Shown in pieces: positions 1 to 47,171 of a stretch of DNA of 64,000 nt; positions within the stretch are counted from its first letter, which is position 1; each line of letters opens with the position of its first letter. The notes under the pieces were generated by a model, which worked only from the letters and a program-made list of their open reading frames with translations, searched no databases and had not been told where the DNA came from. The stretch spans positions 434,001-498,000 of the forward strand of contig NZ_CP121446.1 of assembly GCF_030643905.1 (NCBI RefSeq), read 5' to 3'. The translations under genes and the position numbers were made by a program. This DNA comes from Flavobacterium sp. IMCC34852 (GTDB lineage: Bacteria > Bacteroidota > Bacteroidia > Flavobacteriales > Flavobacteriaceae).

Positions 1-1600
1 AGCAAAAAAAATATTCAATTCTCAAAAAAATGAAAGTTATGTTAACAGAGTAACATTAGACATTTTATTAACTCAATCATATGCTTGTGATTATCTAGGA
101 AGTAATAAAACTGCATTTGAGCTTTTAAAAAATAATGTAGCAAAAAGAGATTTGAGAATTAAGTACTTCTGCTACAATACAATTGCAAACAATTTATCAG
201 GTCTCAAGTTGCATTCTAAGTCAATAGAATACTATTTAAAAGCAGAAAAAAATAGTTCGAATAAGAGCCAGAGGTATACATTGTATAATAATATTGCTCA
301 TGAGTATATAAATTTAAAAAAACATCAAAATGCCATTTATTATTTATCAAAAATCTTATCATCAAAGTCTAACAAAAAAAAATTTCCTAATGAATATGCA
401 ATTGCTGAATCATTATTTGCATTTAATGAAATTGAATCAAAAAATAGTACTAAAGTTTTAGAATTAATAAGAGATGCTGATTCGATACTTTCGGTTACAA
501 ATAGCTTAAATGGATACAATTACAATTTGATAAATTTTTCGAAATTGTATAGTATCAAAGGAGATACTACCAAAGCAATTTATTTTGCCAAAAAAGCTTT
601 AATGGTATCTGAGAGTTATAAAAATCCAACAGATATCTTGCTCAGCCTAACTCAATTAATAAAAATAGATAAAAAAAATGCACATGAAAATGGATTAAAG
701 TATATTAAAGTAAATGACAGCCTTCAACTTAAGGAGCGTAGTTTCAGGGATAAGTTTGCACAAATGCAATTTGAAACAAATGAAATCAATCAACAAAAGG
801 AAGACGCTTTAAGACAAAAAGCAATTGTTGTAGCCATTGCAATCACAATTCTTATTATTTCCATCTTAATTTTCATCATTTCTCGACAAAGACTAAAACA
901 AAAAGAGCTTATATTAAAACAAGTAGAGCAAAAAGCCAACGAAGAGATTTTCCAATTAATGTTGGTTCAAAAAGCCAAAGAAGAAGAAGCAAGACAACAT
1001 GAAAAAAAACGAATCGGCAGAGATTTACATGACGGTGTTATGAACAGATTGGCCAGCACTCGCTTAAATCTTTCCTTGTTGTCGATTAGTCGTGATGATC
1101 AAACTATTGAAAATTGTTTAAATCACATACGCGACATTCAAAACATTGAAAAAGAAATCAGAAACATTGCCCATGATTTGAGCCAGGATTCACTATACGA
1201 TTTAGACAGTTTTGAACCTTTATTGAATAATTTATTGTCCAATCTAAACCAAACAAACATCACTCTTTTCAAATTGGAAATTAATCCTGACTTTAATTGG
1301 ATTAAACTTTCAAGCAATAAGAGAATGAATTTACTTCGCATTATTCAGGAAGCCGGCAACAATATTATTAAATATGCCAAAGCCCAAAAAGCAACCATTA
1401 GCTTTTTAATGGATGATAAAAATGCCTATCTTCTGATTGTTGATAATGGAATCGGATTTAAAAAGGGTGCTGTCCAAAAAGGCATTGGTATAAAAAACAT
1501 GAAACTTCGGGTAAAAATAATGAAGGGAAAATTTAACCTTACTTCAAAACACAACCTCGGCACTAAAATAAATATCTCCATTCCGCTAGACGAAGAATAA
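1..1600 (+). CDS. TPR sensor histidine kinase (5' end outside window)
   Basis: The reading frame is open from base 2, so the start lies upstream of the window; 532 codons are visible. The N-terminal part is helical, TPR-like repeats. One membrane segment lies at about nt 820-882, followed by a coiled linker. The dimerisation/phosphoacceptor motif is of the HisKA_3 (NarL/DegS) type, RDLHDGV, with the histidine codon at 1028-1030. An HATPase_c domain follows, with DNGIGF near nt 1438-1458. With a single visible membrane segment, the TPR part is expected in the periplasm. The linker resembles that of the kinase at 2279 (shared DILLSL, NDSLQ-like and FETNEI-like stretches), so the two are paralogues. 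No regulator follows directly; it may use the one at 4330 or one upstream. The sensor half is more AT-rich than the kinase half. Confidence 0.9.
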   Translation, partial: AKKIFNSQKNESYVNRVTLDILLTQSYACDYLGSNKTAFELLKNNVAKRDLRIKYFCYNTIANNLSGLKLHSKSIEYYLKAEKNSSNKSQRYTLYNNIAHEYINLKKHQNAIYYLSKILSSKSNKKKFPNEYAIAESLFAFNEIESKNSTKVLELIRDADSILSVTNSLNGYNYNLINFSKLYSIKGDTTKAIYFAKKALMVSESYKNPTDILLSLTQLIKIDKKNAHENGLKYIKVNDSLQLKERSFRDKFAQMQFETNEINQQKEDALRQKAIVVAIAITILIISILIFIISRQRLKQKELILKQVEQKANEEIFQLMLVQKAKEEEARQHEKKRIGRDLHDGVMNRLASTRLNLSLLSISRDDQTIENCLNHIRDIQNIEKEIRNIAHDLSQDSLYDLDSFEPLLNNLLSNLNQTNITLFKLEINPDFNWIKLSSNKRMNLLRIIQEAGNNIIKYAKAQKATISFLMDDKNAYLLIVDNGIGFKKGAVQKGIGIKNMKLRVKIMKGKFNLTSKHNLGTKINISIPLDEE

Positions 1601-1943
1601 TCTTTTTTCGTTTTCTAAAAAGATTACTGCCATAATGACTATTCCTTTTCCTTATGGAATTTTTATTTTCAAAAAGCTTAATTGACACTGCTGTGAAATA
1701 AGTTTATCAACACTTATACACAATTATCAACATTTTGGAGAAAATCGCCAAAATCATCCACCCGGATTTGACTATCATTCACTCACAAACGAGGTCATTC
1801 CACCATAAACACCAATATATATAGGGATTCACAGAGACATCCTTTTTAGTTTTACATCGTGAAAGTGTGAAAGCCCTCAAATCATTAAAAGCCCACACTT
1901 ATTAAAACGAAACAAAAACATTAACAATAAAAAGTCTCAAATT
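1601..1943. other. 343-bp intergenic region before the repeat peptide gene
   Basis: No convincing ORF is present. It holds three phased DnaA-box-like 9-mers (1704-1732), a weak -7-like box TAGTTTTA at 1847-1854, and a possible leader hairpin with arms AAGTGTG (1863-1869) and CACACTT (1894-1900). If the -7-like box is used, the peptide mRNA has a leader of about 80 nt containing that hairpin. No good terminator is visible after the kinase gene. Confidence 0.5.
1704..1732 (+). repeat. Three 10-bp-phased DnaA-box-like 9-mers
   Basis: TTATCAACA (1704-1712), TTATACACA (1714-1722) and TTATCAACA (1724-1732) are spaced exactly 10 bp apart, on one face of the helix. The middle copy fits the DnaA box TTATNCACA; the outer two differ from TTATCCACA by one base. 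They could bind DnaA or a dimeric regulator. Confidence 0.55.
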
Positions 1944-2189
1944 ATGAAAAAATTAGCAACAACATTCGGACTATTAGCTTTGATGCTTGTAGTTACATCT
2001 TTTACTACGCCAATAGAAACTGGCGGAAAACAAGATCCAACTCCGACTATGCTTACTTATGAAACTGGCGGAAAACAAGATCCAACTCCGACTATGCTTA
2101 CTTACGAAACTGGTGGAAAGCAAGATCCAACCCCGACCATGCTTACTTACGAAACTGGCGGAAAACAAGATCCAAGACCTTCAATGTAA
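1944..2189 (+). CDS. Secreted repeat peptide precursor (4 x 15-residue repeat)
   Basis: An 81-residue protein. Residues 1-22 form a signal peptide (two Lys, then a hydrophobic core LLALMLVV). The rest is a tandem repeat of ETGGKQDPTPTMLTY from residue 25: three exact copies and a shortened fourth ending DPRPSM and stop. Repeats 1-3 differ only at synonymous positions (Tyr tat/tac, Gly ggc/ggt, Lys aaa/aag, Thr act/acc), so the peptide seems to be under selection, not just the DNA. It has no cysteine, no lipobox and no recognised domain. It sits between two TPR histidine kinases, has its own strong terminator, and looks like a multi-copy peptide precursor. I do not recognise the family. A structural or surface repeat protein is the alternative. 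That it is translated is likely; its role is inference. Confidence 0.8.
   Translation: MKKLATTFGLLALMLVVTSFTTPIETGGKQDPTPTMLTYETGGKQDPTPTMLTYETGGKQDPTPTMLTYETGGKQDPRPSM
2016..2186 (+). repeat. 45-bp in-frame tandem repeat, 3.8 copies
   Basis: Units at 2016-2060, 2061-2105, 2106-2150 and 2151-2186 (short). Each encodes ETGGKQDPTPTMLTY or its start. There are no spacers, which excludes CRISPR. Confidence 0.95.
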
Positions 2190-2211: not shown

Positions 2212-2242
2212 AAAACTATCGCATTAGCGATAGTTTTTTTTT
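2212..2242 (+). terminator. Intrinsic terminator of the repeat peptide gene
   Basis: An 11-bp perfect stem, AAAACTATCGC (2212-2222) with GCGATAGTTTT (2227-2237), loop ATTA, then a T run. It separates the peptide transcript from the kinase gene downstream. Confidence 0.9.
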
Positions 2243-2253
2243 GATATAATTTG

Positions 2254-2261
2254 TAGTTTTG
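2254..2261 (+). promoter_or_regulatory. Promoter -7 box of the second TPR kinase
   Basis: TAGTTTTG fits the Bacteroidota -7 consensus TAnnTTTG exactly, 17 bases before the TTG start at 2279. No good -33 TTTG is seen at the usual spacing. Confidence 0.5.
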
Positions 2262-2278
2262 GAGAAACTAACTAATAC

Positions 2279-4333
2279 TTGAAAACAAAACTTTTCTTTT
2301 CAATCATTTTAATTTCATTATTTTCTTGTTCAAAAAAGAATGAGAAAGAGAATACTAATTTAAAAATTGAAAGAAATGATAGTGTTGAAAAAATTTTAAA
2401 CCTATCAAAAAGCAAACCTTCTTTTTTTGAGAAAAAAAAATTAATAGACAAGGCTTATGAAATAGTTAGCAATGGAGATAATTCTTTGCAATCAAGAAAT
2501 TACTTATCAAAGATTATTTTTGAATACTATTATATAAATGACCTAGAAAGTGTTAACAACACTTCAAAATATCTATTAAAACTTTCAAAAAAGACAAACG
2601 ACTCAATTAATTTAGGGGTTGCATATAGAAGTAAAGCATTTTATTTTAAAAGTAAAAATGTTTTAGATAGTTCTTTTTACTATTATTTTAAATCCGAAAA
2701 ACTTTATCAAAATCTAAATGACCGTCTCAATCTAGCTAATGTATTACTAAACAAAGGAATGGTACAATACAAGGGAGGCAACAATTTAGGTGCTGAATTA
2801 TCCTTAACCAGAGCTCAAAATTTATTTAATGAGTTAAATGAACAACAAAAGTTATTTGAAACATTAATAGTCTTAGGAAATGTTTCAGAAGAACTAAAAG
2901 AATTTGACAAATCATTAATTTACCACACTAAAGCTTTAGAAAAAGCAAAAGAATTAGAAAAAGAATCTAAAACCCATCGTGAGGCAATCTGTTATAACAA
3001 TATTGGGTTTGTTTATGAAAAACTTAACGATTATAACAAGGCCATTCAGAATTTTAATTTAGGATTGAAAGACATAGGAATTAGAAAGGACCTTCCTGAT
3101 TTGTATGCTAACTTGCTTGACAATCTAGCATATTCAAAATTAAAAACAAATAAAACGGAAGGTCTTCCACAAATGTTTTATACTTCTTTAAAAATAAGAG
3201 ATAGTCTAAATTCAATATCTAATATTATAGTAAGTAATATACATTTATCTCAATACTATGCTTCAATTGGAAACATAAAAACCGCTGAAAAATACGCAAA
3301 GAATGCTTTAAAGATTTCAAGAACTTCAAAAACACCTATAGACATTCTATTATCACTTCAGCAAGCATCAGATGTTGACATCTCAAACGCATCAAATTAC
3401 AATAAAGAATATGTAAAACTAAGCGATAGCCTTCAAATTATTGAAAGGAAATCTAAGGATCGTTTTGCTAGTATTGAACTCGAAACTGAAGAAATCAAAC
3501 AAGAAAACCAAGGCCTAGCAGAAGCAAACAGAAACCTGTTATATTTCTTTGTAGTAACATTTATTGTTGTGGTGTTACTATTCGTCGTAAGAGCACAACG
3601 CGCCAGAACTCGTGAACTCCTTTACAAACAAGCCCAGCAAAAAGCCAATGAAGACATCTACAACCTTATGATGTCACAACAAGCTATTATTGACGAAAGC
3701 CGAAGTAAAGAAAAGAAACGTTTGGCACAAGACTTACACGACGGGGTTTTGGGCAGAATGTTTGGTTTGCGTTTAAACCTCGACAGCCTAAATTCAAGCA
3801 CAGAAGAAGATGCCGTTCAAAAACGTTTCGAATTGTTGAATGAACTCAAAACCATCGAACAAGACATTCGTGAAATATCACACGACCTAAATAGAGAAAA
3901 ACAAGTTTTAATTAATAACTTTGTCTCTATCGTTCATAATTTATTAGAAGAACAAAAGAACTCTTTTGAAGCCAATGTAACCTATTCTATTGATGAAAAT
4001 GTAGTTTGGGACAAAATAGGAAACGCTATTAAAATCAACTTGTACCGTATCCTACAAGAAGGATTGCAAAATATTAATAAATATGCCAATGCCTCTAACA
4101 TTGTCGTAAAAATCAAAGGAGACGAAGAAAATGTATATTTAAAAATCCAAGATGATGGTGTTGGATTTGATGTCAACAAAAAAAGCAAAGGAATCGGCAT
4201 GCAAAACATGATTTCGAGAACCCATGATTGTAAAGGTATTATCGATATTACCTCTAAAAAAGACGAAGGCACCAAAATAGTCATCACTATTCCAATTGAA
4301 ACCAAACAACCTGTAATAATACCACAAGAATGA
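2279..4333 (+). CDS. Lipoprotein-type TPR sensor histidine kinase
   Basis: 684 residues. TTG is taken as start because it is the only choice that gives the signal MKTKLFFSIILISLFSC, with lipobox Cys17. Residues about 30-390 form TPR-like helical repeats. A membrane helix spans about 419-438. HisKA_3 follows with KRLAQDLHDG and phosphoacceptor His487, then HATPase_c with N-box residues near 598-600 and DDGVGF at 625-630. The TPR sensor should face the periplasm. The stop overlaps the regulator's start (ATGA at 4330-4333), so the pair is translationally coupled. Codon and base use shift from very AT-rich (sensor) to normal near nt 3580, just after the membrane helix. It is paralogous to the kinase at 1-1600. 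Having both a lipobox and an internal membrane helix is unusual; the N-terminus may be lipid-anchored on the periplasmic side. Confidence 0.93.
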   Translation: MKTKLFFSIILISLFSCSKKNEKENTNLKIERNDSVEKILNLSKSKPSFFEKKKLIDKAYEIVSNGDNSLQSRNYLSKIIFEYYYINDLESVNNTSKYLLKLSKKTNDSINLGVAYRSKAFYFKSKNVLDSSFYYYFKSEKLYQNLNDRLNLANVLLNKGMVQYKGGNNLGAELSLTRAQNLFNELNEQQKLFETLIVLGNVSEELKEFDKSLIYHTKALEKAKELEKESKTHREAICYNNIGFVYEKLNDYNKAIQNFNLGLKDIGIRKDLPDLYANLLDNLAYSKLKTNKTEGLPQMFYTSLKIRDSLNSISNIIVSNIHLSQYYASIGNIKTAEKYAKNALKISRTSKTPIDILLSLQQASDVDISNASNYNKEYVKLSDSLQIIERKSKDRFASIELETEEIKQENQGLAEANRNLLYFFVVTFIVVVLLFVVRAQRARTRELLYKQAQQKANEDIYNLMMSQQAIIDESRSKEKKRLAQDLHDGVLGRMFGLRLNLDSLNSSTEEDAVQKRFELLNELKTIEQDIREISHDLNREKQVLINNFVSIVHNLLEEQKNSFEANVTYSIDENVVWDKIGNAIKINLYRILQEGLQNINKYANASNIVVKIKGDEENVYLKIQDDGVGFDVNKKSKGIGMQNMISRTHDCKGIIDITSKKDEGTKIVITIPIETKQPVIIPQE

Positions 4334-4995
4334 AAAGCCCTATCCAAATTTTAATCGTTGATGACCATCCGTTCATAATTGAAGCCTACAAAAATGCCAT
4401 CAATAAATACAGCCAAAATGGCTTCGAATTTGAAGTAACCCAAGCCAACAACTGTAAATCGGGTTACGAAAATATTGTAGAATCTTCGAAAAAATTTGAT
4501 ATCGCCTTTTTTGACATCAGCATGCCCGAATATGCCGAAAAAGGAATCTATTCCGGTGAAGATTTAGCCATGCTGATGAAAAGCGAAATACCGGCCTGCA
4601 AAATCATCCTTTTGACCATGCACACTGAGCTTTTAAAAATTAATAACATCATCAAAAACATCAATCCTAGCGGTCTAATCATCAAAAATGATTTAACCTT
4701 TGACGAATTGCTCTTTGCTTTCGATAAAATCATCAACGATGAAAGCTACTACAGCCAAACCGTTATCAAATTAGTCGGACAAGCCCAATACAACAACATA
4801 GAATTGGATGTATTTGATAAACAAATCCTTTTTCACCTATCAAAAGGAGTTAAAACAAAAGACTTGCCCACCTATATTCCGCTTTCTTTAAGTGCAATTG
4901 AGAAAAGAAAATTAAATATCCGAGAAATACTTGAAGTCGGTGGAGGAACCGATGTGGATTTGATAAGAGAAGCCAAAAATAAAGGTGTCATTTAA
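4330..4995 (+). CDS. Response regulator, REC plus LuxR-like HTH
   Basis: 221 residues. The N-terminal receiver domain has acidic pocket D11/D12, phosphoacceptor D62 in FFDISMP, T96 and K119. The C-terminal part, about 158-215, reads like a LuxR/FixJ helix-turn-helix (FDKQILFHLSKGVKTKDL, then SLSAIEKRK as the recognition helix), though it is more divergent than usual. It overlaps the kinase stop by four bases, so it is its partner. Two inverted repeats lie immediately downstream (5001-5038) and are candidate binding sites. The DNA targets are unknown; the repeat peptide gene is a plausible one by position only. Confidence 0.92.
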   Translation: MKSPIQILIVDDHPFIIEAYKNAINKYSQNGFEFEVTQANNCKSGYENIVESSKKFDIAFFDISMPEYAEKGIYSGEDLAMLMKSEIPACKIILLTMHTELLKINNIIKNINPSGLIIKNDLTFDELLFAFDKIINDESYYSQTVIKLVGQAQYNNIELDVFDKQILFHLSKGVKTKDLPTYIPLSLSAIEKRKLNIREILEVGGGTDVDLIREAKNKGVI

Positions 4996-36504: not shown

Positions 36505-36575
36505 TTAAGTACGATTTACAAAGTACGAAGTACAAAGTAAAACTACTTCAAACTTCGTACTTCAAACTTCGTATT
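36505..36575. repeat. Word-repeat hairpin spacer (AAGTACGA / CTTCGTAC)
   Basis: On the plus strand, purine-rich words AAAGTACGAAGTAC are followed by complementary ACTTCAAACTTCGT repeated twice (14-bp unit). The halves can pair over about 30 bases. It lies between two co-directional minus genes, just upstream of an ATG. Confidence 0.8.
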
Positions 36576-38700: not shown

Positions 38701-38702
38701 AA

Positions 38703-38780
38703 TTAGCTTTTAGCAATTAGCTTTTAGCAGTCAGCACCATACTGAACGCTAATGGCTGAACGCTAATAGCTGAACGTTAA
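38703..38780. repeat. Word-repeat hairpin spacer (TTAGC / GCTAA), moxR-DUF58
   Basis: AGCTTTTAGCAATTAGC words on the left, GAACGCTAATGGCTGAACG and a second GAACGCTAATAGCTGAACG on the right. The right arm stops a few bases before the next ATG. The halves are imperfectly complementary. Confidence 0.75.
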
Positions 38781-42292: not shown

Positions 42293-42358
42293 TTACGAAT
42301 TAAAAGAATATCATGTCAAAAAATTTAATTCATAATTTAAAATTCATAATTCACAATT
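42292..42358. repeat. Word-repeat hairpin spacer (AATTA / TAATTCATAATTC), batA-batB
   Basis: AATTACGAATTAAAAG on the left and AATTCATAATTTAAAATTC, then ATAATTCACAATT, on the right. Repeated CATAATT words, ending at the start of batB. Not a strong hairpin; pairing is AT-only. Confidence 0.6.
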
Positions 42359-47127: not shown

Positions 47128-47171
47128 TTTGAATTAGCTTTTAATTCATAACTCATAATTCATAACTCAAA
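47128..47171. repeat. Word-repeat spacer (AATTCATAACTC) in the leader of the 118-residue gene
   Basis: TTCATAACTCATAA then TTCATAACTC repeats, with an upstream AATTAGCTTTTAATT that can partly pair. It ends five bases before the ATG. Confidence 0.55.

Follow-up and report, generated by a model that had tools for sequence, protein, structure and literature searches.

The 64,000-nucleotide stretch of Flavobacterium sp. IMCC34852 analysed here (the window; genome code G000; coordinates are positions in the window) contains a gene for a short repeat peptide with a predicted secretion leader, followed by a TPR-HisKA_3 sensor kinase that is called HK2. In Flavobacterium, the peptide and the sensor half of HK2 change together; the leader, the promoter, the kinase half and the regulator are nearly constant. 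Inside the genes, the near-identical units of the peptide are maintained by purifying selection. On this evolutionary evidence, the link between the peptide and HK2 comes close to being established, and it is very likely that the peptide is the ligand of HK2. Taken as a whole, the locus is best explained as a peptide pheromone precursor and its receptor, which we consider probable. That the active form is a released short unit is put forward with somewhat less assurance, and action of the peptide between cells is favoured a little more cautiously still.

The peptide gene and the downstream kinase

1944..2189, plus strand: peptide precursor gene, ATG start, 81 residues; family found genus-wide
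1944..2012, plus strand: leader MKKLATTFGLLALMLVVTSFTTP, conserved in alignment A1; predicted signal peptide or signal anchor
2016..2186, plus strand: four unit copies (Tandem Repeats Finder), putative active core TGGKQDPxPxM and linker LTYE, boundaries presumed
2279..4333, plus strand: HK2, TPR-HisKA_3 sensor kinase of 684 residues, candidate receptor (Pfam TPR, HisKA_3, HATPase_c)
4330..4995, plus strand: response regulator with receiver domain (Pfam Response_reg), NarL/UvrY-like over its length, NCBIfam matches below cut-off

The array was detected by Tandem Repeats Finder with a period of 45, 3.6 copies, 93% matches and a score of 285, the top of 13 rows in the window. Copies 1-3 (2016-2060, 2061-2105 and 2106-2150) encode the same 15-mer and differ at five sites, all five synonymous; copy 4 (2151-2186) encodes ETGGKQDPRPSM. 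An earlier sequence-only reading of the stretch had described this open reading frame with its signal peptide and about four units, the five synonymous changes, a separate terminator for the peptide gene, and two flanking TPR kinases with a regulator. The frame is present as described, and the recount of changes gave the same result. A hairpin with a T run lies at about 2212-2242, and the kinases and regulator were recovered by Pfam matches, by the full frame of the upstream kinase in locus L031 and by the regulator at 4330-4995. Short tandem repeats of period 14 also occur in the window at 36507-36573, 38701-38780, 42327-42358 and 47142-47169.

No family in Pfam and NCBIfam was matched by the peptide above cut-off. 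Several public records name it '3-oxoacyl-ACP reductase', for which the sequence offers no ground; the name is apparently an annotation error that has spread.

HK2 consists of a sensor (residues about 18-415), a hydrophobic helix (about 419-441) and the kinase beyond it. The sensor is predicted to be periplasmic, as it lies between a lipobox-like N terminus, whose cysteine C17 is invariant across an alignment of 15 sequences, and the hydrophobic helix. The AlphaFold model of residues 22-415 has a predicted local distance difference test score of 91.8. The predicted fold resembles Rap, NprR and LGN, a fold in common being no proof of a common function. HK2 was rejected as an equivalog of FimS of Porphyromonas gingivalis, as the NCBIfam FimS model NF053520 gave 49.4 bits on residues 187-444, far under its cut-off of 600. 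In locus L279, HK2 is split over two frames.

Linkage of the peptide and the kinase across Flavobacterium

A search with the peptide against 60 relatives returned mostly weak matches, the best of which had the leader in common. After the leader, most species carry another tandem unit, for example EIGGRSQVPSF, NIDGGSRQIKTDNIA, LVGGASAGGNKKVD, IIGQGATGGNMKVD or DEGGTRRIKTDTYTSS. Profile A1 was built from 16 peptides with the conserved leader and differing units, and all 7 invariant columns of this alignment fall within the leader. At E<=3.3e-7 the profile matched 145 of 249 Flavobacterium genomes; at E<=1 it matched 209, many of them by chance. In the 104 genomes without a strong match, the peptide family is absent or not recognisable. 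An extension of the leader family beyond the genus was rejected, as the only strong matches among 299 genomes of the family were the two of Flavobacterium; three matches from other genera (E 2.7e-4 to 5.8e-4) lie in frames of 135-730 residues. The window genome has two more weak A1 matches, at G000:C1:1811498 and 2982679.

The loci were read in 116 genomes including that of the window, 29 of the 145 strong-match genomes being outside the sample. The usual gene order is GlyRS, LytTR response regulator, peptide, TPR-HisKA_3 kinase, response regulator and a convergent ThiL. The TPR kinase starts 13-328 bp 3' of the peptide gene in 113 loci, and the remaining three end at contig ends. The response regulator lies 1.5-2.8 kb downstream in 109 loci. 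Over the stretches covered, LytTR was likewise identified in 109 loci, while 94 have ThiL and 90 have GlyRS. Approached in reverse from the kinase, 80 named loci were covered; 74 have the peptide, and the six without it have a kinase that starts less than 300 bases from the start of the available sequence. The sequence-only reading had held that absence of the repeat gene from relatives, or its separation from the kinases there, would speak against it. Where the family exists, no such separation was seen (113 of 116 loci linked, three ending with the contig); the gene is absent or unrecognised in the 104 genomes without a strong match.

In compact loci such as L046 and L048, just GlyRS, LytTR, peptide, kinase, response regulator and ThiL were seen between GlyRS and ThiL. 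In the window genome, an extra regulator and kinase (RRup and HK1) are inserted between LytTR and the peptide. Metagenome bins titled Nitrotoga, Rhizobium, Bifidobacterium and Sphingobacterium (L248, L266, L313, L316) hold all or part of the Flavobacterium locus; the titles are probably wrong or the bins mixed.

Selection within the array

Arrays were delimited by DNA identity, because protein identity would favour protein conservation. By this criterion, a tandem array was found in 84 of the 116 peptide genes, and the number of units ranges from one to about seven across the loci. Successive copies in the 84 genes showed 627.2 synonymous and 128.8 nonsynonymous differences over 2252 and 7072 sites respectively, which gives a nonsynonymous to synonymous ratio (pN/pS) of 0.065 between copies within a gene. 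Therefore, the copies have diverged at the DNA level without loss of the unit that they encode, as the sequence-only reading had proposed from the window alone.

Amino-acid changes were then compared between the core, taken as the residues present in the last, truncated copy, and the linker, the remaining residues. Of the 66 arrays that have 2.6 copies or more, 47 entered the count; nine with the tail out of register and ten with a length that is a whole multiple of the unit were excluded, and three of those counted (L037, L109, L141) are plainly phase-shifted. Changes were seen in 35 of 1682 comparisons for the core and, more often, in 23 of 338 for the linker. It is this contrast that suggests proteolytic release of the units, which would free the core from its linkers.

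Co-variation of the peptide with the sensor half

The two halves of HK2 differ sharply in conservation. In comparison with seven close relatives (G185, G094, G233, G211, G170, G088, G105), 40-residue blocks of residues 1-400 are 16-62% identical, blocks 441-680 are 68-100% identical, and the regulator is 83-96% identical. In 20 independent close pairs (kinase distance <=0.10), peptide similarity was correlated with sensor identity (rho 0.77, p=6.4e-5) and not with identity of the kinase half (rho 0.19, p=0.43). At looser cut-offs of 0.12, 0.15 and 0.20, the rho for the sensor was 0.77, 0.74 and 0.66. Sensor identity was 0.72-0.99 in pairs with similar peptides (n=8) and 0.37-0.72 in pairs with dissimilar peptides (n=10), two pairs of intermediate similarity being omitted; the median kinase identity was 0.93 in both classes. 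G233 and G211, for example, have the common unit IGGSKTPxLGNG and sensors that are 89% identical to each other. Each of these sensors is 38% identical to that of the window, while the kinase halves are 91-93% identical. The co-evolution of repeat and sensor half anticipated by the sequence-only reading is thus found in close pairs.

Another TPR kinase of the same genome, matched in five of eight genomes searched, served as control. Its first ten 40-residue blocks are 45-100% identical in three of the close relatives, and 28 of these 30 sensor blocks are at least 62% identical. These results bear on neutral slippage of a low-complexity gene beside a fast-evolving kinase, with no functional link between the two. 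Arrays of such length do grow by slippage and TPR sensors can drift, but this account is already contradicted by both the low pN/pS and the difference between the two correlations, and the control kinase is conserved; it is extremely improbable.

An arms race would also be compatible with rapid change from lineage to lineage, the units acting as antimicrobial, bacteriocin-like peptides and the two-component genes regulating them or giving immunity. However, it is the TPR sensor half that co-varies, and the compact loci (L046 and L048 among them) contain no gene recognised as coding for an exporter, a modifying enzyme or an immunity protein. We regard an antimicrobial role as very unlikely.

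Exchange of the peptide-sensor tract

Flavobacterium sp. J49 (locus L238), which was obtained from a separate search, carries the units ESGGKQDPRPTMLTY, ETGGKQDPRPTMLTY, ETGGKQDPTPTMLTF and ETGGKQDPRPSM, of the same type as the window. Between the window and J49, the synonymous divergence (dS) is 0.00-0.09 per 60-residue block over HK2 residues 0-360, 0.27 in 360-420 and 0.67-1.27 in the kinase. The neighbouring genes are well diverged (dS 1.08 for the response regulator, 0.75 for LytTR, 1.34 for RRup and 2.03 for HK1). The DNA is nearly identical around the leader, the terminator and the start of the sensor, and the repeats are reshuffled. The simplest account of J49 would be a recent interspecies transfer of a tract with peptide and sensor. 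A near-identical sensor between diverged neighbours suggests that peptide and sensor probably move together as a cassette.

In a few further pairs with the same peptide, synonymous differences per site (pS) were far fewer in the sensor than in the kinase (for example 0.48 against 0.80 for G157/G123 and 0.17 against 0.35 for G063/G071). Most pairs are near synonymous saturation, including the eight of the dN/dS comparison, and some pairs with different peptides also have a lower pS in the sensor than in the kinase. For these reasons, exchange is claimed from J49, and no transfers are claimed beyond it.

Such exchange is relevant to a purely internal role of the peptide, in which the precursor or its fragments would bind HK2 of the cell that made them and so signal secretion, periplasmic proteolysis or the state of the envelope, with nothing passing between cells. 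Ligand and sensor would share the periplasm, HK2 carries a lipobox-like cysteine, and the 81-residue product consists of leader and units, with no space for an outer-membrane export domain. An internal cue would, however, give little reason for many differing units with matching sensors, or for exchange of the tract between species. A self-signal of this kind is considered unlikely, though it is the strongest of the alternatives.

Short secreted open reading frames beside other TPR kinases

From the 104 genus genomes without a strong peptide match, 53 were chosen (at least 98% complete, best E above 1e-3), and an HK2-type kinase was found in 45 of them. In 29 of 30 such loci without the peptide family (L318-L347), another short secreted-type open reading frame lies within 350 bp upstream of the kinase. 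The background was 19 of 303 other genes, or 16 of 232 with a 250-bp upstream gap. Thus the layout is broader than one gene family. Fourteen more loci put through the same filter, three of the genus (L373, L374, L386) and eleven of other genera of the family (L375-L385), all had such a frame, that of L380 looking spurious. Three HK2-like kinases stand in tandem at G236:C1 729015-735634 and at G096:C1 711538-718339, both genomes lacking the peptide family.

Many of the alternative frames in L318-L347 end in K-x-D or similar. L330, L331, L333-L335 and L338 have two separate precursors with similar C termini, for example TPIIIIKRD; L323 has several tandem precursors ending in DPIIIPKKD, and tandem frames are also present in L343. 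The recurrence of similar motifs in separate precursors suggests that the short unit is the active part. This can be set against a role for the intact repeat protein, as a CpxP-like modulator or as a surface or adhesive protein that touches the sensor and whose units are never released. Small periplasmic partners of kinases are known, and repeats can provide avidity. Against such a role stand the range in copy number from one unit to about seven, the presence of similar C-terminal motifs in at least two separate small precursors without a tandem array (L323 and the six loci above), and the rarity of core changes relative to linker changes. Function of the protein in its intact form is therefore judged improbable, and release of short units remains the favoured reading.

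A further case is present in the window genome itself, where a lipobox peptide with DTGGQ and a proline run lies upstream of a second TPR kinase (G000:C1:2533955-2535598).

G000:C1:2533955-2535814: second kinase and lipobox peptide region (L194, L208); layout recurs in other genera of the family

A profile of the lipobox peptide gave matches at E<=1e-5 in 20 of the 249 genomes of the family that were searched; at E<=0.01 it matched 105, many in long frames and probably by chance. Of 30 loci compared, 23 have both the lipobox-type peptide and the TPR kinase, L211 has the kinase only, L210, L226 and L229 the peptide only, and L231, L233 and L237 neither. A search of the phylum with the kinase profile scored only four candidates in each of 296 genomes; the 29 that reached E<=1e-40 all belong to the Flavobacteriaceae, which does not imply absence elsewhere.

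On balance, we lean towards an undescribed class of peptide languages in the Flavobacteriaceae, with many TPR-HisKA_3 kinases each having a short secreted precursor just upstream and cassettes passing between species. To the same degree, we favour the idea that the several copies of the peptide would come from tandem repeats in some members of this class and, in others, from tandem genes or from a pair of precursors whose C-terminal motifs are alike.

Proposed mechanism and points against it

In the proposed mechanism, the Sec leader would carry the precursor across the inner membrane, and proteolysis would liberate several copies of one short peptide, about TGGKQDPxPxM in the window. The freed peptide would bind the periplasmic TPR solenoid of HK2 and alter phosphotransfer from HK2 to the NarL-like response regulator. 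The LytTR regulator encoded upstream would set the level of the precursor through direct repeats in the promoter. Peptide and sensor half would together form a specificity cassette (a pherotype), quick to diversify and exchangeable between species, and each lineage would recognise its own signal through matching peptide and sensor. The processing, release from the cell, binding, direction of signalling, LytTR control and phenotype in this scheme are what we infer.

Several observations weigh against this scheme. By the DNA criterion, 32 of the 116 peptide genes have no tandem array. In the compact loci (e.g. L046, L048), no exporter or protease gene was recognised from GlyRS to ThiL. The partial Mantel test over all 108 loci gave the same correlation of the peptide with the sensor (0.19) and with the kinase (0.19), so that the discrimination comes from the close pairs. 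The TPR positions on the ligand side, the concave face, show no excess of variability over those on the convex face (entropy 2.07 against 2.13, P=0.38), and in pairs with different peptides they change less (0.40 against 0.49). The variation is therefore spread over the whole sensor, and this comparison does not support diversification of the groove only. In the window and J49, dS of the peptide gene is 0.59, above that of the sensor halves.

The upstream kinase HK1

1..1600, plus strand: HK1, paralogous TPR-HisKA_3 kinase (Pfam), 5' end outside the window; 669 residues in full at L031 8592-10601

The sequence-only reading had taken both flanking kinases as receptors of a pheromone precursor. 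The precursor-receptor arrangement is supported for the downstream kinase, by linkage and by co-variation of HK2 with the peptide; the upstream kinase does not appear to be the relevant receptor. Within the stretches covered, 13 of the 116 loci have a further kinase 5' of the peptide gene. HK1 of the window is 20-43% identical to that of J49 in six of seven 60-residue sensor blocks despite the shared peptide type, and on account of this divergence HK1 was rejected as a second receptor. It is probably an extra kinase with another ligand. A fast-changing secreted-type frame of about 116-149 residues precedes HK1 in several of 15 loci examined (L031 8092-8541, i.e. about -909 to -460 relative to the window), and it is a possible partner of HK1.

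Expression control

1755..1811: three direct-repeat boxes (1755-1770, 1776-1791, 1796-1811), period 20-21 bp, conserved upstream; candidate LytTR operator
1847..1855, plus strand: TAGTTTTAC, candidate -7 element of the peptide promoter; recurs in many of 26 upstream regions
2212..2242 (about), plus strand: intrinsic terminator between the peptide and kinase genes, hairpin and T run
2254..2261, plus strand: TAGTTTTG, candidate -7 element of the kinase's own promoter; similar post-hairpin sites in many regions

The middle box was found with 0-2 mismatches of 17 in 65 of the 116 loci; one shuffle per locus always gave at least 5. A genome-wide scan for it returned a single perfect match, at the window locus, and nine sites with two mismatches; the backward control pattern gave seven matches, about the level of these nine. 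Direct repeats spaced by about two turns of the helix are the binding sites of LytTR proteins. Because of this and because a LytTR gene lies upstream, the response regulator it encodes likely drives the peptide gene directly through the boxes. TAGTTTTAC and TAGTTTTG are candidate -7 elements by the Bacteroidota consensus. A hairpin and T run between the peptide and kinase genes were present in all 19 downstream regions compared.

Comparison with known systems

Among the matches listed in a literature search, which left subscription papers and preprints mostly outside its scope, no Bacteroidota peptide pheromone system of this kind was found by title or start of abstract. The nearest parallel may be the pherotype systems of Firmicutes, ComC/ComD-ComE and Agr. 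There too, precursor, sensor kinase and regulator are linked, a LytTR regulator is present, the sensor half varies along with the peptide next to a conserved kinase half, and specificity is exchanged between strains or species. The Flavobacterium system may work in a similar manner with different parts. It is Gram-negative, its kinase is of the TPR-HisKA_3 type and not a multi-transmembrane HPK10, its precursor is a tandem repeat with a Sec-type leader and no processing or export partner recognised in compact loci, and its LytTR protein is not the regulator encoded beside the kinase.

The RRNPPA systems (Rap-Phr, NprR-NprX) share the TPR receptor fold with HK2, as judged from the predicted model. 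Their receptors are cytoplasmic and require re-import of the peptide, whereas the TPR part in Flavobacterium is predicted to be periplasmic and is fused to a histidine kinase. Precursors that hold several copies of a hormone, such as yeast alpha-factor and those of neuropeptides, likewise have near-identical selected units, short linkers and a secretion leader; the Flavobacterium precursor differs in being bacterial and in having no known processing signals.

With a predicted ligand sequence for each kinase, a matched set of receptor variants found in nature and one natural exchange, the system would allow a direct test, by synthetic peptides in a laboratory Flavobacterium, of what periplasmic TPR kinases of Bacteroidota detect. 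FimS likewise combines a periplasmic TPR sensor with a membrane-bound kinase, and its signal is stated to be unknown, a polypeptide being suggested by the authors (PMC11053733). HK2 is no equivalog of FimS by its NF053520 score. If the class of peptide languages is real, peptide sensing would also be suggested for the orphan periplasmic TPR kinases of other Bacteroidota, FimS included.
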